Of a stretch of DNA of 64,000 nucleotides, positions 17,042 to 48,029 are shown piece by piece. Positions within the stretch are counted from its first letter, which is position 1, and each line of letters begins with the position of its first letter. The stretch is from Selaginella tamariscina (Eukaryota; Streptophyta; Lycopodiopsida; Selaginellales; Selaginellaceae), in assembly GCA_003024785.1 (NCBI GenBank), contig PUQB01000114.1, positions 1 through 64,000 on the forward strand. Direction: 5' to 3'. Both the position numbers and the translations under genes were made by a program. The notes below the pieces were generated by a model. It was given only the letters and a program-made list of their open reading frames with translations. It searched no databases and had not been told where the DNA came from.

Positions 17042-18677
17042 TGTCAGAGTTTTAACCCGAAGGGCCAACACGTGACAACACGTGGTGCTAAGTGGCCATT
17101 CAGCGTCATCACCCTGTGTGAGCAACGCTAAGTCTTCCAAGATAACCTTAAGAGTCTGACTCAGAGGCCCAATTAGGCAGAAGCTTAGAGTCCTACCCTA
17201 GAATGACCATCCCTGAACCCTAAAGGATAATCCAAGTAGACTTTAGGATCTATCCCAATAAACCTAGACAGGCTCATGCCCTAACCACAAAGGAGATGTG
17301 TCTCACACATGCCTCCGTGACAGAGCTAAGGCATTGTCACTTACCCCGTGAGGAATCACCCTCATTCGGGAGAAAACCCCTTTAGGGAGACAAAGGGTAC
17401 TTGAACATGACTAACCCTTAAGGCCAAGTTATACCCTAGACCTAGGGCTAGTACTTAGTGAGGACATGAGTGTGCGCCGTAGGCGAACACAAATGTTTCT
17501 ACTTAAGCAAACTCCTAAGGCTAGGTTTGAATAACTTTAAGTACATGACTTGCAAGTGTCTCATCATAGGGCTTTTGCTAATGAGCTTAGATTGTTCAAC
17601 CCATAGATCCTAAGGAGACACCCCCTAGCCAGGTGTGCCAAAGCACACCCAGTTACGAGACTTAATCTCCCTTGAGCGAATGCCAGCTTAGCACCTAGTG
17701 TGAACACAAGCATGTATGTTTACTAGAGTATCCAACCCCTTTGTGACAAACCCATGACACAACCCCAAAGGGTGCCTCGAGCATTGTATTGTGTGATGTT
17801 TAGTCTAGTGTCACATCTCCATGTGACACTGCCTTCCCCGATGTGGGCTATCATGCCATAGCCCTTAGATTCAAGAGTTGCACCAAGTGCCATGAACGTG
17901 ACTCCTAAATGCCAACTCTAGAACCCCTTAGTGAACCCTCAGGAACTAGGTAATGTGAACTTATCAAACAAGATCCCACACTCACGGTTGGACAAGAACA
18001 CGAATGTGCCTTGCTTGGCCATGAGTGCTACACTTAACTTGACGTGGAGGAGGAGGCTGGAGACAAGCTTCAAGTTTACCTATGCATGGTTTTATTTAAT
18101 CCAATTGTTATCCTTAATATAGTGAATTTACCCCGAAGGTGGGACGTACCCCTATCATCTAGAAGTTAGGGCAGCACAACAGATTGTGCCTTGACGACAC
18201 AAGCTAAGCTTGCACCAAGAGAAAAGTAATGAGCTCAGTCATGAACCTAGGAACCCTCACTCCTATATACTACCTTATTTATGTGACAGAGCCCCCCCTA
18301 TTTTCATGTTTACATAAGTGGGCTGGCATGAATCTCATTCCCAGAGGGAATATACTTGGTGAGTTATCCATCGACCCCTAAACCTTAACATGTCAAACCT
18401 AGGGGTATTTCTAAACATATCTGACATGCCGAACTCATCAGAACTAGCCATTAACCCAACTAGGACACGGAAAACCAAGTTAAGAGTTTTTTAGATGGAA
18501 GTGCTAGCTTCGCCCAGAGTTTCTTGCAAATACCTAATGGCAGCCGGACCATCACTAGATATCCAAGTGCACTAAGTAGGCCTGTTTCTTCTACACCTAG
18601 GGCTTATTAACATAGTACAATAGGTAACAACAGTCAACATTCAAAGTAAAAGGGGAGTCATAATAAAAACTATGACA
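17042..18677 (-). repeat. Solo LTR of a gypsy element
   Basis: A 1636-bp LTR bounded by TGTCAGAG…CTATGACA with a perfect 5-bp target duplication and no internal sequence, so it is a product of LTR-LTR recombination. It belongs to the same family as the LTR at 37205-38186 (+) and the interrupted LTR at 46439-54417 (-). It interrupts the older gag gene. Confidence 0.9.
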
Positions 18678-23985: not shown

Positions 23986-24064
23986 TAGCTGGACGATGTT
24001 ATTGCTATACATAAAGATAACGAGGAGACATATAATCTCCAGGTTGATGACAATCCTAACATTG
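23986..24064 (+). pseudogene. Family X scrap fused to the broken PPR gene
   Basis: The + strand reads …DDVIAIHKDNEETYNLQVDD…, matching the 3' part of family X exon 2 (compare 26270-26350 on the - strand). The join at about 23985 truncates the PPR gene. Confidence 0.7.
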
Positions 24065-24556
24065 CATGTATAGAAACATTGTCAACTTGAGAGAATTGCC
24101 ACCTATACATGCAGTGTTAGGATTGTTATCAACCTGGACATTATACATCTCTAAAGATTCCTCATAAGAATTGCCAACAACATTGTCTATGTGCATAGCG
24201 CCAAGACCTTCCATTAGATTCAGCAGTCTCATGGCAATGTCCTCCTCATGAGCACAATTATCTCCATTTACAGCAATAGCATCATCCAGCTTTTGTGGTG
24301 CAATGCTAGCCATCATGGAATTCCCCTTGTCAAAGCTACTTGTACCGGTATTTCCATAAACAGCAATAACATCATCCAGCTGCCATGCCTTGGTTTTGAA
24401 ACTAATTATCCTAGTTAAATGCTGTCCACAATAGAAACACCATGGATTGAATTTCCCTTTATTTTTCACACAGATCTTTTAGAACATCGCTAAGGTACCC
24501 TACCCAATCAAGACATTGAAAGTTATCCCATATGTACTTGGCTACTTTTCGAGTTT
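24056..24556 (-). pseudogene. Family X fragment, exon 2 (reverse copy)
   Basis: The 137-codon - strand frame (24469-24056) begins KFNPWCFYCGQHLTRIISFK and continues with an acidic, repetitive tail (…QLDDVIAVYGN…, …KLDDAIAVNGD…). The sequence right of it to 24556 reads the upstream part of exon 2 (…WDNFQCLDWVGYLSDVLK). It lies head-to-head with copy B, forming an inverted repeat. Confidence 0.65.
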
Positions 24557-37204: not shown

Positions 37205-38186
37205 TGTCATAATTTTTACTATGACTCGACCCTTTACTTTGGGGTTTGATTGTTGTTACCTACTAGATTATGTAGCGAACCCTAGATGTAGAAAAAACAA
37301 GCCCGCATAATGCACTTGGGTATATAGTGATTGTCCAGCTGGGTGTCGTTAGGTATTTGCAAGAAACTTTAGGCGAAGTTAACACTTCTATTTAGAGAAC
37401 TCTCTCCTGTTTTGACGTTCCAAGTTTGGATTCTTCTCAAAGTATAGCTTGTCAAAATAAGGATTAGGGACACCCCTAGGGTTGACCTAACCCTAGGGTT
37501 GCCCTAACCCCACGCCCTAAACACCCCCTAGGGGTTAGGTTTAGGGTTAGGTTAGGACAACCATTTTCTCTAAGGGCTGGCATTTCCATGCCAGCCCACT
37601 TACTCACTTAGGAAAACAGGGGGGGGGGGGGGTCTGTCACATAAATAAGGTAGAGTATATGTAGTGAGGCTTCCTGGGTTCAAAAGAGAGCTCGTTAACC
37701 TCCTACCGGTGCAAGCTAAGCTTGTGTCGTCAAGGCGCAACCCTATGTTGTGCTGCCCTAACTACCATACAACAGGGGTACATCCCACCTTTGGGTTAGA
37801 CTATCCTTATCGTTGGCAGGATCGCGCCTTTGTGACGAGAGTACGTTACTTCCAAGGAGTTAGTCAGATTCCTTGGCCCGAAAACCTGCTCGCAAGCTCA
37901 AAGGTGTTGCCCAAGTTCACGTTCTGCAAAACTAGTGGTTGAGGCCTTGCTCCAGCTGCCTCAACCAAGCCAAGCTAGGAACAATACCCATAGCTTGGCT
38001 AGTCCGCGTGTCCTGATTCATAAGGTGAGCCTCATTCGTGAACTTGGTCAACTAGGGGCTTAAGTTCCTAAGGGTTGGGTTCCTAATACGGGTTACTTTA
38101 CCAGATTTCGTGGGGTTTCTAGAGAGGGGATTCCAGGGTTGGCACCTAGCAAGCCGCCTTTGTGGCACCAGGTAAAAACTCTGACA
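37205..38186 (+). repeat. 3' LTR of the chromovirus
   Basis: 982 bp, TGTCATAATTTTTACTATGA…GGTAAAAACTCTGACA. It belongs to the same family as the solo LTR 17042-18677 (which is longer by about 650 bp) and as 46439-54417. It holds a poly-G run (about 37620-37632) and CCCTAA/TTAGGG-like motifs (37480-37555). Confidence 0.85.
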
Positions 38187-39460
38187 GACAAGAGTTAGTG
38201 GGACACAGCAAACCATTGCAATTCTACTTTAACATGTTTAAATAAGTAGCTGATGAGAACTCCTTTCTACCTCAAAGTATGGATTGACAATTTTAACTTA
38301 AACAATAATTTAAATCACCAAATAAACTATGCTAGTTTAGATGAACAAACTTCAAACTAATTTATTTAATAATTTTAAATTAAATCAAATATATAAATTA
38401 AATTTTATATTTTTTAATTTTATGAATACCTTTTCAATTTATTCATTATATAAATTATTAATTAAACTTTTTTTATTATTAAAAACTAGGGTTTATTATT
38501 CATAATTAGTAAAAACCATGGTCTAAACCAAAAAAGTTAATCCATGCCTCAAAGAAATCCAAAACCGATGCCAATCAAGGGCTATAAAATTCAAAATAAA
38601 TTATATAATCAATTTTGGCTATGCACATGGTATGATGAATTATATAAAAAAAATTTTAAAGAGCTATTATGAAACAATTTTAAGAAGACATGGTGATAGA
38701 ACAAGATGTTAATTATGTGGGCCCTAAAGCATACAAGCTCAAATAATACTTCTCACCATTGAAAGATCTTAACTAAGATATGTTTATACTTGTGCAAAAT
38801 CTAAAAAATGTTGAAGCTCATTAGGTATGTCTAATATGACTTGGTTGATCCATCACATCTCTAAAGTGTCAAGCCACGATTCAAGAGCAAGGAGGCTTGA
38901 CTCAAGAGCAGAACAAGAATTAGGAACAAGACGAAAACATGAGGCAAGGAGCAAGAATGTAAGAGAATGAATCTTTATAAGTATTTCTAAATTTGTTTAT
39001 AATACTTACATGTAAATAGCACTGAAGGAGCCGTGCTTTCCTATAAATAATGGCACCCAATTTAATGTCGCTCTTAAAGTGATCATTATTAAAAAAAATT
39101 AAAAAATTAAAAAAAAATAAATTTGAAGAGTGAAAATTACAAAAATAAAGAAACCCTTGTCGAGAAAGAACCAGATCTGAATTTGAGTAGGGAATTAAAT
39201 GCATTTTCAAATTTACATGTCAAACCAACAATACTTATGTCAGAATTTCAAAATTTTTCAAGATAAGTTAACACAAATAATGACACTCTGACATATATAT
39301 TTTCTAATTCCAATGATTTTTATAAATTACATTTAATGTGATTCAAGTGATTCAAGCTGTTTAATATTACAAAATTTTATAAATGTTCTACATTCTTAAA
39401 TTCTAGTATATATTATTAAGTATATATTATAAATATATATACTTATACAATAAATAAATT
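38187..39460. other. AT-rich spacer without genes
   Basis: No coding signal on either strand apart from short chance frames in A/T-rich sequence. Confidence 0.6.
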
Positions 39461-40210
39461 GATATATTATTATGTATCATTTAAAATATTATCATAGTGT
39501 GTTTACTAATACTATTTTCTTAATTATTCGAGTAATTAATTTACATTTCTTTATACTAATGGGATATTCTTTATTATTTTCTTATTATTCCAAGAATATT
39601 CCAATATTAAACCTGATTATCATAATTAAATTAGTATATATTCTTAATTATTTCAATAATTATTCTACATTTGTATATATTAATGGGATTTTCTCAATTA
39701 ATTTCTTATTATTTTAAGAATATTTCAATGTTAAACCTTATTATCAATATTAAATTAATATATATTATTAAAACTATATATGACTATATATTAGATAAAA
39801 TGATATATTATTATGTATAATTTAAAATATGTTCATAGTGTGTACATTAATATCATTTTCTTAATTATTCGAGTAATTAATCTACAATTCTTTATATTAA
39901 TGGGATATTCTTTATTATTTTCTTATTATTCCAAGAATATTCCAATATTAAACATGATTATCATAATTAAATTAGTTAATTATTCCAGTAATTATTCTAC
40001 ATTTGTATATATTAATGGGATTTTCTCAATTAATTTCTTATTATTTCAAGAATATTCCAATGTTAAACCTTATTATCAATATTAAATTAATATATATTAT
40101 TAAAATTATATATGACTATATATTAGATAAAATGATATATTATTATTTATAATTTAAAATATGTTTATAGTGTGTATATTAATATCATTTTCACTTTAAT
40201 TCAATGTTTC
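39461..40210. repeat. Tandem repeat, about 335-bp unit, 2.2 copies
   Basis: Units begin with GATATATTATTATGTAT or a close variant at 39461, 39802 and 40134 (spacing 341 and 332 bp). The third is truncated near 40210. Strongly AT-rich, satellite-like. Confidence 0.85.
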
Positions 40211-40239
40211 TTTTGCACACATATAAAACACAATCAAAA

Positions 40240-40544
40240 TAATGTGTGTGTATCTATATAATAAATTTTTTATCTATCTCTCGCACACACATGCACACTT
40301 TTGTATATACATACACATATTTTATTTATCTCTCGCACACACACACACACACACTCCTATATATATATACATATTATATTGTGTGTGTGTGTATAATTTT
40401 ATTGATTTATCTATCTCTGGCACACACATGCCACACTCCTGTATATACATATACATATATATGTGTGTGTGCATCTCTCGCACATTCCTGTATATATATA
40501 TATGTGTGTGTGTGTGCGCGCGCGCGCGTGTGCGTGTGTGTGCG
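40240..40544. repeat. Compound microsatellite cluster
   Basis: Runs of CA, TA, GT and GC alternate with four copies of 'TCTCTCGCACA'-like spacers. The last 56 nt (40489-40544) are perfectly alternating pyrimidine-purine. Confidence 0.9.
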
Positions 40545-41125
40545 GGATTAATAAAAGGGCGGCGAGATTAATCTTGCCACTCATGAGGCTAACCAAAGAC
40601 TTGCGTGAAGGGTGGCGGGATTAATCATGCCGACCCTTCCATGCCTAGTGAGCGGGATTAATCCCGTCCCACACTCATTGAGACATAAAGAGTGGCGAGA
40701 TTAATCCCGCTGACCCTTCCATGCCTGGTGGGTGGGATCAATCCCGTCGACCTTCCAAGGAGGCGTGGAGGTGGTGGAGGATTAATCCCATTCACTGAGC
40801 ATGGAAGGGGTGGCAGGATTAATCCCGTCACACTTTATGTCTCAGTGAGTGTGGGGCAGGATTAATACCGCCCATCGCCATTATTCAAATGAGAGTGTCG
40901 TGGGAGGGATTAATCCCGCCGACCAGGCATGGAAGATTAATCCCACCACCCTTTTATGTCTTCTGAATTGGTGAGCCAAATCAATCCCGACCACTTCTGT
41001 CTAAGACGAAGAAGGGTGGCGGGATTAATCCCTCACATCCTTTCAGAGGATTGCGAAGGGTGACGAGATTAATCCCGCGCACCATTTCATGAGGCATAAA
41101 AGGCGTGGAGAGATTAATCCCACCA
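40544..41125. repeat. Array of about 15 GGGATTAATCCC-type palindromes
   Basis: A core GATTAATC, usually extended to GCGGGATTAATCCCGC or a near variant, recurs at about 40544, 40564, 40617, 40653, 40696, 40734, 40777, 40815, 40858, 40907, 40934, 40978, 41020, 41065 and 41110. Spacing is mostly 36-49 bp. Intervening sequence is also partly repeated and inverted: 40672-40730 is an inverted copy of 40797-40853. No ORF spans it, and the adjacent sequence is AT-rich. The function is unknown. Confidence 0.9.
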
Positions 41126-41227
41126 CCCCTTCCATATGAATGTATATGTGTATTAGTATATATAAGTTGTTTATCTCATTTTATTTACTTTTATCATTTT
41201 ATCATAATATTTTGAGTAAAAGTCAGT

Positions 41228-41325
41228 AAACCATGTGAAACTATCCAAGCTCACATTTGTGATGGTTCTAAAACCAAATATTATCAGTCTTTTGCATTGT
41301 CACAAATGTGAGCTTTGGACAGTTA
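41228..41325. repeat. Inverted repeat (hairpin)
   Basis: AAGCTCACATTTGTGATGG (41252 region) faces TTGTCACAAATGTGAGCTT (41300 region), with further pairing of ACTATCCA against TGGACAGT. The loop is about 35 nt. Confidence 0.75.
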
Positions 41326-41655
41326 ATCTCGTCCACTTCTCCTTGAGACAAAGAAGGGTGTATGTGAATTTATCAGTGTATTAATTTTGTATATTCGGGT
41401 TTATACAAGTGTGTGTGCGTTTTTATATGAATTGTATTCACAGTGTATATTGTATAGAAAGACGATTTGATCAAACAAGGAGATTCAATCATTAGTATGG
41501 AGTCGTCGTTAATTTCTGGATAAGAATTAAAATAAAATCTGTTATACTTTGATATGTGTTTGAAGAACTAATCATTTTTGTATCAGATGTGGAATTGAGG
41601 TGACATTAAGGACAAGAGGAGGAGATGAGATGGGTAGGGAGATTTTGGAATTAAC

Positions 41656-42310
41656 TTGGCCATATTTCAAAATAAACAGGAAGTGTATTGGAGCAACCAT
41701 GGTTGCTGTCAAACTAACCTCTGTCACATCGCGTGGACAAGCAAAACAATGGAAACTAGATTTATTAGTCAAGCACCCGAAAGCAGGTTGCGAACCCAGA
41801 TTGGACGATGCTCACACATATGCCTTGTTCCATCCAATGTCACATTCTTGGATCTAGAGGTCGCCAGTTACGACAAGAATCTTGAATGGTTTTGTCGACT
41901 TGTGGATAATAATGTTCACGTTTTCACTAATAATATCGACCATGGAGTTCTTCTTCAATTAAATGAAAGCCTATTTATGAAGGGGATCCAGTTAAATGTC
42001 TACTTCGAAGATCTCTATACTCATCGAGTAAGTGTATTCTTAGCAGATATTGCTTCATAATACAGAACATTCACAAGTGGAGCAATTGTCCCTCTTATTG
42101 AAGAAGAACATAGCAACATCATTAGGGAGATTAAGGGTGGCTCGGTCCCAGGTTCTTTACAGATCATGTTCAATTTGCTTAGGAATCTTTGGGAGCTAGA
42201 AGAGTGTGCCGAGAACATTAGAACAGCTGCAATCGGGGCTCACACATGTTATTCTGATCGTAGAAGAAAATCATTATCGTTTTGTCAGCTGCACCTGTGG
42301 CATCTCATGC
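41656..42310 (+). pseudogene. Unrecognised coding remnant, probably transposon-derived
   Basis: A 134-codon frame (41656-42060) contains …FLDLEVASYDKNLEWFCRLV… and …GVLLQLNESLFMKGIQLNVYFE…. One stop later the same frame continues …TSGAIVPLIEEEHSNIIREI… to about 42280. The length and even composition suggest a former globular protein. I recognise no family. It is co-oriented with the methyltransferase-like remnant downstream and could be part of one unit. Confidence 0.3.
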
Positions 42311-43350
42311 TGCAATAAGCCACAAGGAAATGATGTTGGATGATAGGATTTACGAGTGTAGGGTTAAGTATTGAGTGTCAACCCAAACTTTTAATTACAT
42401 GCCACTCAACCAGGAACATGTAGCTGAGCTCATGGAGAAGATGAAGGACAACAATTCTTACACCGTTCCACATAATGCCATGTTTTGTGCCCATACTATA
42501 AAGAAAAAAGGCACTGAGATAGTGTATGACAACACCAGAACAAATTACGAAGATTCAAACAGAAAATAAAAAATCAATCATGTACTACATTATTAATGGT
42601 CAGCACACATAACGGCAGCCCAACAACTTCTCAATGAACACAAAAAAGGAACGATGGCAATAAAACTTTCCAAGCATACCCGTGAGAAGCTGACAAAAAG
42701 ATTAGCGTTTTTAGCTAAGCCGAATCTCACAACAAGCAGTACCATAAGTTATCGGCGGAATGGGACGCTGCCGACACCAACACACTACAACAGCAAAATA
42801 TGGGAAGTTTAAACACACGCGAGCCATGTGGGAATCTCTTGAGCGACCACAAAGAGCTACTGCAGGGAAAGAACAATGTGAGACTACCGGGTAAGTAAAT
42901 TGTCTTGGCGATTTATCTCGCCGTATATTAATCTGTCTTTTTTTTTTTCAGAAGTTGAAGAAATTGCAGCAGTTGATTTTGCCCAGGTGGGCGGGAAGGA
43001 AACATCTTTCTGATGATGTTGATTTCTTGCCCGAGGATAGATCTTTGCCAAATGGTGGGGATTATGGAATCCTTTTCAAAAGGAACACTGAAGAAGAAGC
43101 AGACAAGTGAAGGGGAGCCCTCGAGAAGTCTGCAAAGAAACCCAGTAAGACGCAAGGCTAAGTCTGTTCAATTACAAAGGATGTAACAACGATTTCAAGC
43201 TCACATGGTTGAAGCCTTTAAATGGAACAACGATGGAGGAGATGGAAGTCTTGTGATTTGGTGATTGATGGCAAACTACAGATTAACAACAGCAGCCCCA
43301 CCTCTCCTTTTCATGTCAAGGCAATGGAGTTGAAGACGGTCAGACTTTAA
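42311..43350 (+). pseudogene. Scattered coding remnants
   Basis: One readable piece at about 42363-42570 (…YMPLNQEHVAELMEKMKDNN…) is followed by several stops. A basic stretch at about 42960-43190 ends in a Lys/Arg-rich sequence. There is no identifiable domain. A poly-T tract followed by TTTTCAG at about 42937-42951 looks like a splice acceptor. Confidence 0.2.
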
Positions 43351-43353
43351 GGA

Positions 43354-44330
43354 GTGGTTGGGAATACACTGCACAAACTGGGTTGGACCTCAGCTTCAAC
43401 ATACGAAGAGGTCAGCAAATATTTGCATGTGACAAACGATGATATGCTTGTCCAATGGGTGAACCAATCGGAAGATCTGGGCAACTCACAACGCCAAAAA
43501 GGAGAACATTGCGATGACGCCTTCTCTTATGGCAGTCCTTCAGCAGCGAGAACCGAGTTGAACCTTATAAAGGAGGATGCTACGAATCACGACAAGCCCT
43601 ACAGATGTTTGTTGTCGATTCGAGACTTTATGGGGTAACATCACTGCTTGTAGGAAACCGTTTCAATTGTTCGTGATGGATCGGGGTGTCAAAAAATCCT
43701 TCGACAGATAGGGCACTAGAGGATTTGGTGGAGAAACTTAGCCGTGCAAGCATATATAGAGAAGGTATTTATTATTGAATTCATGCTTGCACTCTTACTG
43801 ATACCTACTTTTTAGGTATTTATTTCTTGATTCTTGCTCATGTCACCGATACTTTTGCCTTCTCTTCGCCAAGAAGAATAACATCGTTGGACAGGATTTT
43901 ATATGAACGATGCTGATCCCAAGTGCATTGATACGGTTGTTCACTTGGTTGTTAGGAATGCGCCAAACAATTTCAAACTTCCAAATGACTGGCCAGGCAT
44001 CTGTTTGCACTCCAACGGCCTGAACCTCCATCCGATACACCGATAGGGACGTATTCGGCAATGTACGTTATCCAAACATTACAAGTCAAGGCGCACGGAG
44101 CATCGTCAACTTGATCAGGGGTCCTCACAGTGATGCATGGGTTTTTGACTACTGCACTAGGGTCCGTCTTGAAGGAGTGTTACCTTCGGATACATGTGTG
44201 TTTGCCGTTGAAAAGGATAAGACCATGGTTGAGGACCTGAACAAGTGGATAGAGAGGTTCTCAACTGACTACCCAACAAACCCATACAGGAGTATTTGGG
44301 AAAGTTCCCTCCTAGAAGTGCGATAGCTCT
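43354..44330 (+). pseudogene. Possible beta-class DNA methyltransferase relic
   Basis: Two separated pieces have the layout of an amino-methyltransferase with permuted motif order. Near 43600-43645 the + strand reads QMFVVDSRLYGVTS, which resembles the catalytic motif IV (DPPY-G) with an insertion. At 44043-44326 a clean frame reads …TSQGARSIVNLIRGPHSDAW, then VFDYCTRVRLEGVLPSDTC and VFAVEKDKTMVEDLN. This resembles the SAM-binding motif I region (vlD.f.GtGttl.aal…c.avEkd), with the Gly-rich loop lost to a deletion or substitution. Between them is …MNDADPKCIDTVVHLVV…. Motif IV before motif I is the beta-class order. The assignment is inference from short motifs; the protein is certainly broken. 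Confidence 0.35.
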
Positions 44331-46438
44331 AAGAGAATCTAATTCAATGTTGAGTCTGAGGACGATCTTTAATCAGATATTAAATCGGAAGTTATCTCGA
44401 GGAGTACAGAACATTCACATACTCCATTACCATGGAAACATCAATAAATGAAATGGAAGATCATGAACCATCTCCAAGCGCTAACCTTCTTCGCCTCACT
44501 CAGAAGGTAACAGCGAAGAAGAATTGTTAATGAATTAGAGTGACGAATACTTGTAAATGAGTGTAACATAAGGCATTTTTGTATATTTCATTTATATTTG
44601 TACAGAAAAATAAATTCTCAAGGATTAAAGAAGCTTTTAGTTCAAACATGGGTCACACATTAACAAGGTAAATAATATACCTTGATAATTATAAGGCCAT
44701 CTAACTATCATTTTGCAGATGTAATGAAAGTTAAGAACATGGATTTTCAATATTGGCATGAGGTAAGAGAGGGGTTTGGCAAAAATTTCTTGTGCCACAT
44801 GTCAGAATGACAGAGTTCATGCAGGAAATGGATAATAATGCAGCTCAAAACATCCTTACCATGGGGACCACTTCAGTTTTTCATCACCATTTCTATTGTC
44901 TTCAATTCCTAAATCACTTTCTTCAGCGCCTGCAATATCTGAATCTTAAAGGATGATGTACAAGTAAATGATAAAGGATAGGCAACAATATAGTGTCAAC
45001 AGATAAATGTGAAAGGGACCAAACAAGTGAGTTGCAATGCATTCGAGAGGCAACGCTATCCTTAATACCCATGGTCCATATTGTGTTATTGAATGTCAAT
45101 GGTGTTTGCTTCATCGACAAAGGCCTGAGGATATAAAAAAGAAATCAAACAAGGAGATGTCATTCCTTGTCATGGTAAATTTTGACATGATATCATTTTT
45201 TGCCCGGGTTGGACCGTCTCTTTCAAAAGCTTAAGGAGATGGGTGCACTTGTGGGGATTTGGTCATGCATGTAATTCATAACTTGACACCAATACTGAAT
45301 TTGCTTAAGAAACATTGTAGTGTTGCAGAAGAGGTGATTCGTAAAGATTGGATTTTTGACCAGCGAATATGTTATAAACCTCTCGAATTTCACAATATAA
45401 AAAGGAAAGCAAGCCATACTTCTTCAAGAATGAAAGATTAATTGGGCTTCATGGGGAGATCAGTCGTTAAGGATAATGAAGAATGCACATATCTTAGTGG
45501 TAGACGACTCTCCTCAGAAGGCTATGCTCAACCAAAACATTGCTTGTATTCATCCAATCACTTTCGACCATATTCTGATATATCATGGATGAGCTAGTGA
45601 ACTACTTGGATACGTGCCTCAGAAAGAAGAATCTCGAAAACTTTTTGAGCAGTATCCACCGTATATCAAACATTTCCTGACTTTTCTTTCTCGTGATTTT
45701 GAATTTTATAAAATGAAGGATAGCAACCGGGCGCTTTATAATATTATTCTTAAGGAACGTCATTTTTAGATGAGCCTTTATGCCCTTCTTTATCACATCT
45801 TATGTATTAACAAGGATGGCAACTCCCAATTGCATTCGTGAGAGTGTTAAGTGGTGGCAACAACATCAAGATATTGACCAAAATGATTTGATTAATCCGG
45901 AGAGTGATGATTTAGACAAAATGATTTCTTATGTTAAGGAGATATTTATAAAAAAATTAACATGTTGATAAAAAAATGATTTCATTTGTAATTATGTTTG
46001 ATAGTATTTTTAATTATTGTAAACTATTTTTAGAATAATATGAATATTCTAAGATATTTTAGGAATATTCCTTACTAAGTAAGGTTATTGAAGGATTAAT
46101 TATTAATTAATTAATATTTAAGGCTTAATTACATATTAATTAAATAATTAATTAATAATTAAAACTTAAGTATTAATTAGCAATTTATTTTATATTCTAT
46201 TTTCATGTATCATGTCCATTTTAGTTACAACGTGCATGAACTTTCAATCCGACAATCTTCACCGTTTAATCCAGTTAAATCCAACAACAGACATGGCAAT
46301 CAAACATTTTACTTAGCAAAATATGGGTTATTTAATGAATATGGTAATTCAAATTCATTAAATAACACATGAATCTATCCCAAATTAGACTTCAAAAAAA
46401 CATCAAACTCATGGTCTCAACTGGCGAAGATACGATAT
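44331..46438. other. Decayed sequence, no supported gene
   Basis: Short frames (45037-45234, 45259-45441, 45780-45968) are co-oriented with the remnants upstream and may be exon scraps, for example …LNLLKKHCSVAEEVIRKDW…. No domain is visible. From about 46000 the sequence is very AT-rich with TTAATTAA repeats. Confidence 0.4.
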
Positions 46439-47608
46439 TGTTAAAGTTTTTACCTAAAGGGCAACACGTGACAACATGTGATTATTAAGTGGCCATCTGG
46501 CATCAACACTAATGTGAAAACACTAAGGACCTCAAGAGTCTGATTCAAATGCCTAATTAGGCAGGAGACTTAGAGTCATACCCTAAGTCCTTTAGAATGA
46601 CTATCCCCAAACCCTAAAGGATAACCCAAGTAGACTTTAGGATCCTATTCTAGTAGACCTAGGCAGGCTCATTCCCTAACCCCACGAAGAAGACGTGCTT
46701 CACACATATTCTCGTGACATAGCTAAGGCATTGTCACTTACCCCTTGAGGACCCTCGTCTGGGAGTAAAACCCCTATAAGGCAACAAGGGGTACCTTGAA
46801 CCATGACTAACCCCTAAGGGTTTGAGTGGCCAAGTCGTACCTTAGACCTAAGCTAATACTTAATGAGGACACAAGTGTGCACCATAAGTGGACATGAGTG
46901 CTCTGTTAAGTGAACTCCCTAAGGCTAAGTTTGAATAACCTTAAGTACACGACTGCCAGTGCCTCACGAAAGGGTTCTTGCTAATGAGTTTAGGTTGTTC
47001 AACCCTTATATCCTAAGGAGAACACCCCCTAACCAAGTGTGCCAAAAGCACACCTAGTTACGAGACCTAACCTCCATTGAGCTTATGCATAAGGCTTAAC
47101 ACCTAGTGCGAGTATAAGGCATGCTTGTTTACTAGAGTATCCAACCCCTTGGCAACAAACCCATGATACAATCCCAAAGGGCGTGCCTCGAGCATTATAC
47201 CTTGTGTCGTCTAGCCTAGTGTCACATCTTCATGTGACACTGTCTTTCATGATGTGTTCTATCATGTCATAACTCTTTAGATTCAAGAGTTACCATAAAC
47301 ATGGCTCTCAAATGCCAACTCTAGAACCTCAAAAACTTAGTAAAAAAACATGTCAGTTAAAATCCCACACCCACAATTGGACAAAGACACGAATGTGCCA
47401 TGTTAGTTGTGAGTGCTGCATCTAGCTTGATGTGGAGGAGGAGGCTAGAGACATGTGCATTTAGACAGAGCTCCCATGCATGATTTGCTAACATTAAGGG
47501 TAAGTTACCCCAAAGGTGGGACGTACCCCTATTGTTTGGAAATTGAGGTGGCACAATAAAGGGTTATGCCTTGCGACAACAAGCTAAAGCTAAGCCCCCC
47601 TTTGTTTT
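46439..47608 (-). repeat. LTR of the 37205/17042 family, left part (split by a chromovirus)
   Basis: It begins TGTTAAAGTTTTTACC, the equivalent of TGTCAGAGTTTTAACC in the solo LTR, and stays alignable with 17042-18250 until the insertion at 47609. The other part is at 53904-54417. Without the insert the LTR would be about 1.68 kb, close to the 1636 bp of the solo copy. Confidence 0.85.
47604..47608. repeat. Target-site duplication, left (GTTTT)
   Basis: It differs by one base from ATTTT at 53899-53903. The intact solo LTR has CTATTTTCATG at this place, so the ancestral site fits. Confidence 0.6.
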
Positions 47609-48029
47609 TGTCACGACTTGTGCAAAGGGCAAAACCTTTAAAACAAGGGTGGAACCTTGAAAGGAGGAGATTGTATTCAAGAAAGAAATGAATACAAAAT
47701 GAAACACAAGACCGAAGATTGGTGTTGAATGATTCTGAGAAACCTGGAATTAGAACCCTATTTATATATCTGAGGTCCTGAGGATTGTATGGTTCACAAC
47801 TGGTCTGGAATGTGTGATCCACAACTAGTCTGGAATGTGTGATCCACAACTGGTCTAGAATGTGTGGTCCACAATTGGTCTGGAACATGCGTATGAATAT
47901 ACGCTTTGTTGTTGATGGTGTAGTTCAGCATCTAGGATCATGGACCAGTTGGTTAACACATGTGTGTGTTAGTCAAAGGTCTCGGGTTCAAGTTCCATAA
48001 AAGGCAAAAAATAACCCATGATCCTTACA
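47609..48029 (-). repeat. 3' LTR of the chromovirus
   Basis: On the - strand it runs TGTAAGGATCATGG…AAGTCGTGACA. It contains three tandem copies of a 30-bp unit around 'TGGTCTGGAATGTGTG' (about 47797-47890); the 5' LTR has fewer. Just inside is the polypurine tract GAAGGGGAGATAG (48030-48042, - strand). Confidence 0.9.

Follow-up and report, generated by a model that had tools for sequence, protein, structure and literature searches.

How does a plant genome come to hold a row of short palindromes, and does such a row serve anything? The question is raised by a GC-rich block in contig PUQB01000114.1 of Selaginella tamariscina, which was analyzed within a stretch of 64,000 nucleotides (the window). 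An initial annotation of this DNA described about 15 palindromes and offered three readings, namely the subterminal transposase-binding array of a transposon, a platform with many sites for a dimeric DNA-binding protein, or a hairpin-prone structure spread by replication slippage. The block is a real and well-structured repeat that is probably ordinary, most likely another instance of a palindromic minisatellite, and the array is probably without present function.

Organization of the array

Fifteen dyads centered on ATTAAT lie within about 580 bp and take up 40546-41119 (Table 1). Their cores are located at 40546, 40566, 40619, 40656, 40699, 40736, 40780, 40817, 40860, 40908, 40935, 40979, 41023, 41067, and 41112. 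This list contains sites with at most two mismatches, which were kept where spacing and flanks fit. A further two-mismatch site at 40879 (CATTATTC) was excluded by judgement, as it is a misfit in both its flanks and its spacing. The exact octamer GATTAATC is found 12 times in the 64-kb window, and 11 of these copies fall within 40566-41119 (the lone copy outside the array is at 45890); 100 shuffles of the whole window give a mean of 1.41 and a largest count of 6. The annotated array of about 15 palindromes is thus real.

The characterization of these palindromes as perfect or near-perfect is overstated. Twelve sites are at most two mismatches away from the 12-mer GGGATTAATCCC, but only three are exact. 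Perfect palindromes of at least 10 bp number six in 40544-41130, whereas 500 shuffles average 0.66 and never exceed 3. The core had also been described as mostly extended to the longer palindrome GCGGGATTAATCCCGC, which is absent from the window. A 14-mer is the longest perfect dyad of the array.

Successive cores are separated by 20, 53, 37, 43, 37, 44, 37, 43, 48, 27, 44, 44, 44, and 45 bp. The reported spacing of 36-49 bp therefore describes much of the array, with 10 of the 14 intervals being 37 or 43-45 bp, but not all of it, as the full range is 20-53 bp. The contrast in composition was described correctly: G+C amounts to 50.9% in the block (40544-41125) versus 19.7% to the left (39501-40500) and 36.5% to the right (41201-42200). 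The CpG composition of the array is unremarkable (observed/expected ratio 0.69, which ranks 93rd among 315 segments; the whole window has 0.62).

Table 1 Positions of the array, its internal duplications, and the adjoining features in the window
Feature	Positions	Strand	Description
Whole palindrome array	40541..41131	.	15 ATTAAT-centered dyads; from dyad 40566 to dyad 41112, 13 complete monomers
First copy of the 80-bp direct duplication	40608..40668	+	85% identical over 61 nt to the second copy, 40688-40748
Large inverted repeat 1, left arm	40649..40744	+	96 nt without gaps, 81% complementary to 40779-40874; 34-nt center; E 3.75e-42
Large inverted repeat 1, right arm	40779..40874	-	Partner of 40649-40744
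Large inverted repeat 2	40935..41119	.	Center near 41027; matches its own reverse complement at 68% identity, E 3.8e-9, from overlapping, partly self-paired alignments that are unsuitable for p-values; monomers 10 and 13 closest to each other when one is reversed
Longest perfect dyad, 14-mer CGGGATTAATCCCG	40653..40666	.	From the palindrome scan
Left flank, CA/TA/TG microsatellite blocks	40239..40530	.	Repeated, 40239-40391 / 40376-40516
Stem-loop, unlike the array units	41239..41324	.	16-nt perfect arms 41247-41262 / 41300-41315; abuts the orphan unit
Orphan half unit and monomer (TTAATCTCGTCCACTTC...GAAGGGTG)	41323..41360	+	Lies beyond the block initially annotated; lacks a matching left half

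The monomer and its duplications

Tandem Repeats Finder has no entry at the array, which agrees with the initial view that it is no simple tandem repeat. The spacers are nevertheless diverged copies of one monomer of ~44 bp, as is seen when the 13 complete ones (40570-41115) are cut at the dyad centers. After removal of 4 positions at either end, monomers align with one another at a mean score of 4.8 forward and 5.0 reversed, compared with -11.6 (sd 6.3) for shuffled sequences; with a trim of 9 the scores are -2.5 forward and -2.0 reversed, and -11.1 when shuffled. The equality of forward and reversed scores indicates that the family is neutral to orientation and hence that a second, weaker dyad center lies in the middle of the monomer. 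Judged from its sequence, the monomer would thus contain two dyad centers, a strong one at the junctions (GGGATTAATCCC) and a weaker and more variable one mid-monomer. Read outward from the dyad center, the half unit starts approximately with AATCCCGCCACCCTT and is variable beyond.

The mid-monomer dyad is unclear in some copies, and four of the 13 monomers give a negative score when aligned to themselves in reverse complement (trim 4). Self-complementarity holds for the family overall, as reflected by the equal scores in both directions, while self-folding of single spacers reaches z <= -2.3 in only 4 of 14 intervals, counting the partial leftmost one. The nearest relatives among the monomers are found in mixed orientation: monomer 3 pairs with 7 reversed, 2 with 4 forward, and 10 with 13 reversed.

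Inverted copies within the spacers had been noted and are real. They include the two arms of large inverted repeat 1 as well as a second block pair, 40608-40664 / 40779-40835, which is 84% alike. The possibility that a single duplicated 80-bp unit explains the palindromes had been raised as well, and such a direct duplication exists, but it covers only part of the array. The array ends (40554-40580 / 41105-41131) are 78% alike in inverted orientation over 27 nt, and so are many inner unit pairs. Altogether, the array consists of palindromes nested at several scales, its units and blocks having been copied both forward and inverted.

Folding predictions for the 582-nt strand give two large hairpins. 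The energy is -320.2 kcal/mol (z -18.29) when it is folded as RNA and -160.4 (z -15.44) when folded as DNA, and none of 100 shuffles does as well in either calculation. When 213 segments of 300 nt were scanned with 10 shuffles each, segments of the array took second (z -8.3) and fifth (z -6.2) place. The first place is held by 24001-24300 with a z of -11.6, which shows that the array is not alone in folding strongly. That segment contains a separate hairpin at 24025-24151, with 49-nt arms that are 90% complementary and a 29-nt loop.

Conservation of the core

The core hexamer retains 82 of 84 consensus letters, compared with 102 of 140 at half-unit positions 5-9 (Fisher p 4.4e-7), in a count of the 14 complete dyads that leaves out the partial leftmost one and treats half-sites as independent, which they are not. 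Since the sites were originally located by their core, the positions of 40401-41500 were additionally ranked by flank letters 5-13 alone, a partial check because these sites had also served to train the flank matrix. The top 18 positions all adjoin TTAATC (15) or a one-mismatch form of it (3). Lower down the ranking becomes noisier, with 22 true core flanks among the first 28 positions. Ranked 29th is the orphan half unit at 41323, which lies outside the training set and likewise starts with TTAATC. Of the 30 half-sites, 21 retain the second C next to the core and 22 the third, and TCAA replaces TTAA in 2 of 14 cores. Strong CpG decay was rejected as the source of the flank changes, given the unremarkable CpG ratio and a count of 27 transitions and 13 transversions.

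Covariation of the half-sites within single palindromes is absent. At positions 4-7, 35 of 56 are paired (34.4 in shuffles), and at positions 4-13 the halves agree in 78 of 140 cases (78.3 in shuffles). Pairing therefore looks inherited, not maintained. Clear helical phasing of the 15 cores is not seen, with descriptive R values, taken without a significance test, of 0.34 (10.0 bp), 0.13 (10.5 bp), and 0.17 (11.0 bp), and the idea was dropped.

Surroundings, borders, and relatives

The microsatellite blocks on the left side of the array directly follow an AT-rich tandem repeat at 39415-40192 (unit ~332 bp, 2.3 copies, 91% matches). AT-rich DNA lies to the right, where the stem-loop and the orphan unit are located; apart from this orphan, the 64-kb window has no further match to the array units. 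Degenerate telomere-like repeats are arranged head-to-head at 37480-37562 (CCCTAAA at 37515, TTTAGGG at 37540) and contain a 37-nt overlapping palindrome of 70%.

Short plus-strand reading-frame pieces extend over ~41.56-45.8 kb (41564-45800). They are coding-like by eye and are broken by stops and frame changes. None of the 10 + 4 pieces tested from 41.5-46 kb matches a Pfam family above the cut-off, and some weak matches (three among the first 10 pieces) lie below it. The pieces have no PDB placement, and a protein search with two of them gave no relative; they may represent a decayed gene, captured fragments, or an element of a new type. LTR-retroelement domains score above the Pfam cut-offs at several sites in the window (RVT_1, RT_RNaseH_2, Retrotran_gag_2, Pol_BBD, SH3_Tf2-1, and others) and speak for a eukaryotic source. 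A protein search with the gag of an LTR element from the window returned one weak relative. Rfam has no family at gathering score in the window.

At the borders, 40501-40560 and 41111-41180 have no 8- or 9-base word in common that could mark a target duplication. They share the 7-mers GATTAAT, which is part of the unit, and TATGTGT, in a comparison that is blind to duplications of 2-4 bp, these being indistinguishable from the unit itself. In the stretches compared, neither terminal inverted repeats nor target duplications could be recognized convincingly, and the 64-kb window contains no second, mirrored array. Two inverted pairs enclose the array and were both rejected as element ends. The perfect 15-nt pair 38583-38597 / 45696-45710 is at chance level, as 23 of 300 shuffles give the like, and its flanks differ. 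The pair 37719-37818 / 47486-47585 (77% over 100 nt) has a third copy at ~18129-18216 and is thus part of a dispersed repeat.

A blastn search of 40544-41340 against phage and plasmid records gave no relative. Core searches of public contigs returned at least 120 stretches for a 14-mer (viral contigs), 15 for a two-core pattern, and 35 in prokaryote genomes. Blastn of 40401-41450 against the 170 loci listed reached an E of 0.10 at best, and no likeness goes beyond the core. The prokaryote, phage, plasmid, and viral-contig sequences searched thus yielded no relative. Short arrays of GGGATTAATCCC-like dyads, otherwise unlike the array of the window, are present in the bacterial metagenome-assembled contigs L143 (643-751, 3949-3993) and L169 (5368-5506), which were picked by the two-core pattern and are therefore uninformative on kinship. 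No published description of the array sequence was found in the open-licence literature, where absence is no proof. GGGATTAATCCC does occur in one publication and one or more of four related strings in ten, which are unrelated as far as their titles tell and include a plant G-quadruplex survey.

Origin of the array

Palindromic minisatellites and hairpin-forming tandem repeats are a known general kind of sequence. The array shares with them the diverged monomers in a row, the self-complementarity as a family, and the location in a repeat-rich stretch. It differs by its block-inverted monomers, which form palindromes at several scales, and by a core that is better kept than the rest. We place about half of our confidence in the array being a decayed, locally amplified palindromic minisatellite that grew by direct and inverted duplication. 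This is supported by the likeness of the 13 monomers, which is far above that of shuffles in both orientations, by the direct duplication (85%) and the inverted blocks (81% and 84%) together with the mixed orientation of nearest relatives, by the strong predicted fold, by the lack of covariation between half-sites, by the unremarkable CpG ratio, by the absence of further array units in the window (the orphan aside), and by the further repeats and the stem-loop in the flanks. The self-complementary unit would have driven its own amplification: as hairpins or cruciforms formed, replication or repair would have switched templates at the dyads, beside other hairpin-prone repeats. After amplification, the copies would have decayed by point mutation. 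A DNA transposon may have supplied the seed of the array in the form of its joined inverted ends.

The weak self-folding of most single spacers and the four monomers with a negative score in their reverse-complement self-alignment count against a palindromic minisatellite. In addition, plain neutral decay fails to predict a core that is kept above its flanks, which makes the well-kept core the observation least well covered by this reading. A TTAA target restored with every insertion, or a core that is a bound site, would account for it more naturally. Among the three readings initially offered, the hairpin-prone structure nonetheless seems the best supported as far as the predicted fold and the repeat pattern go. 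Duplications in both directions and strong folding speak for it, but the inverted blocks need more than slippage.

A mobile element would account for parts of this pattern. The array could be a foldback-type or miniature inverted-repeat DNA transposon, or the fused subterminal regions of one, with long inverted repeats composed of tandem subrepeats, a possibility we regard as open to serious doubt. The entire block is predicted to fold on itself, both of its ends carry related inverted sequence (40554-40580 / 41105-41131), and a precedent exists in Tetris, a foldback transposon of Drosophila virilis that has large inverted repeats with tandem subrepeats of ~220 bp and target duplications of 8-10 bp (PMC4079207). 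Tandem subrepeats inside large inverted repeats are common to both, whereas the units here measure ~44 bp and no target duplication was found. The inverted ends are, moreover, accounted for by unit-to-unit likeness alone, and the enclosing inverted pairs are a chance-level 15-mer and a dispersed repeat. In CACTA-type elements, subterminal arrays are bound by the transposase. The array resembles these in its dense short motif, which is present in both orientations near coding-like remnants, but its motif is a full dyad, it is the single array in 64 kb, where only one further GATTAATC (45890) is found in place of a matching array at an opposite end, and no transposase was recognized among the 10 + 4 pieces from 41.5-46 kb. 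The short pattern CACTA(C/G) matches at 42783, 43714, and 44155 within 38001-48000. The subterminal array of the initial annotation thus loses ground by the lack of both a mirrored array in the window and convincing element ends in the stretches compared. Alternatively, short hairpin elements with ends TCCCGCCACCC... may have inserted repeatedly into TTAA beside an earlier copy, so that neighbors share one TTAA and face either way. This is unlikely, although every dyad is GGGA-TTAA-TCCC or a worn form of it, the best-kept part consists of TTAA and the next letters, units in both orientations are equally alike, and the orphan half unit likewise starts at TTAA. Against it, intervals of 20-53 bp lie far below the length of known transposons. 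Random insertion of single units would also not be expected to mirror the order of whole blocks, as in 40649-40744 / 40779-40874, and further difficulties come from the TCAA in two cores, the missing closing TTAA at the right end and at the orphan, and the absence of a further copy in the window. Even less likely, the units would be the smallest members of an unrecognized TTAA-targeting hairpin element of ~40 bp that prefers insertion beside its own copies, with the TTAA re-made at each step while the ends drift.

The other explanations invoke a function or an error. A many-site platform on which a dimeric DNA-binding protein would recognize GGATTA half-sites draws on the core kept above its flanks, on 15 dyads per 580 bp, and on the position of the block ~0.4 kb upstream of the short plus-strand reading-frame pieces. 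It is quite improbable in view of the half-sites that lack covariation, the unclear phasing, the second and third C that are kept in only 21/30 and 22/30 half-sites, and the lack of an identifiable gene downstream in Pfam and protein searches. A long imperfect hairpin transcript could serve as a source of small RNAs, for which the very stable predicted fold of the 582-nt strand would speak. We consider this very improbable, as the window has no Rfam family at gathering score and the strength of the fold is a consequence of the inverted copies. Inverted copies are also typical of assembly or polymerase snap-back artefacts. From such an artefact near-identical arms would be expected, and with the larger inverted blocks only 65-84% alike this origin is largely refuted and deserves next to no credence.

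Significance

Should the array be no more than a palindromic minisatellite, it still offers a well-dissected case of how direct and inverted duplications make palindromes at multiple scales. If the intact cores are target or binding sites, the array would separate the core (82/84) from the adjoining arm positions (102/140).
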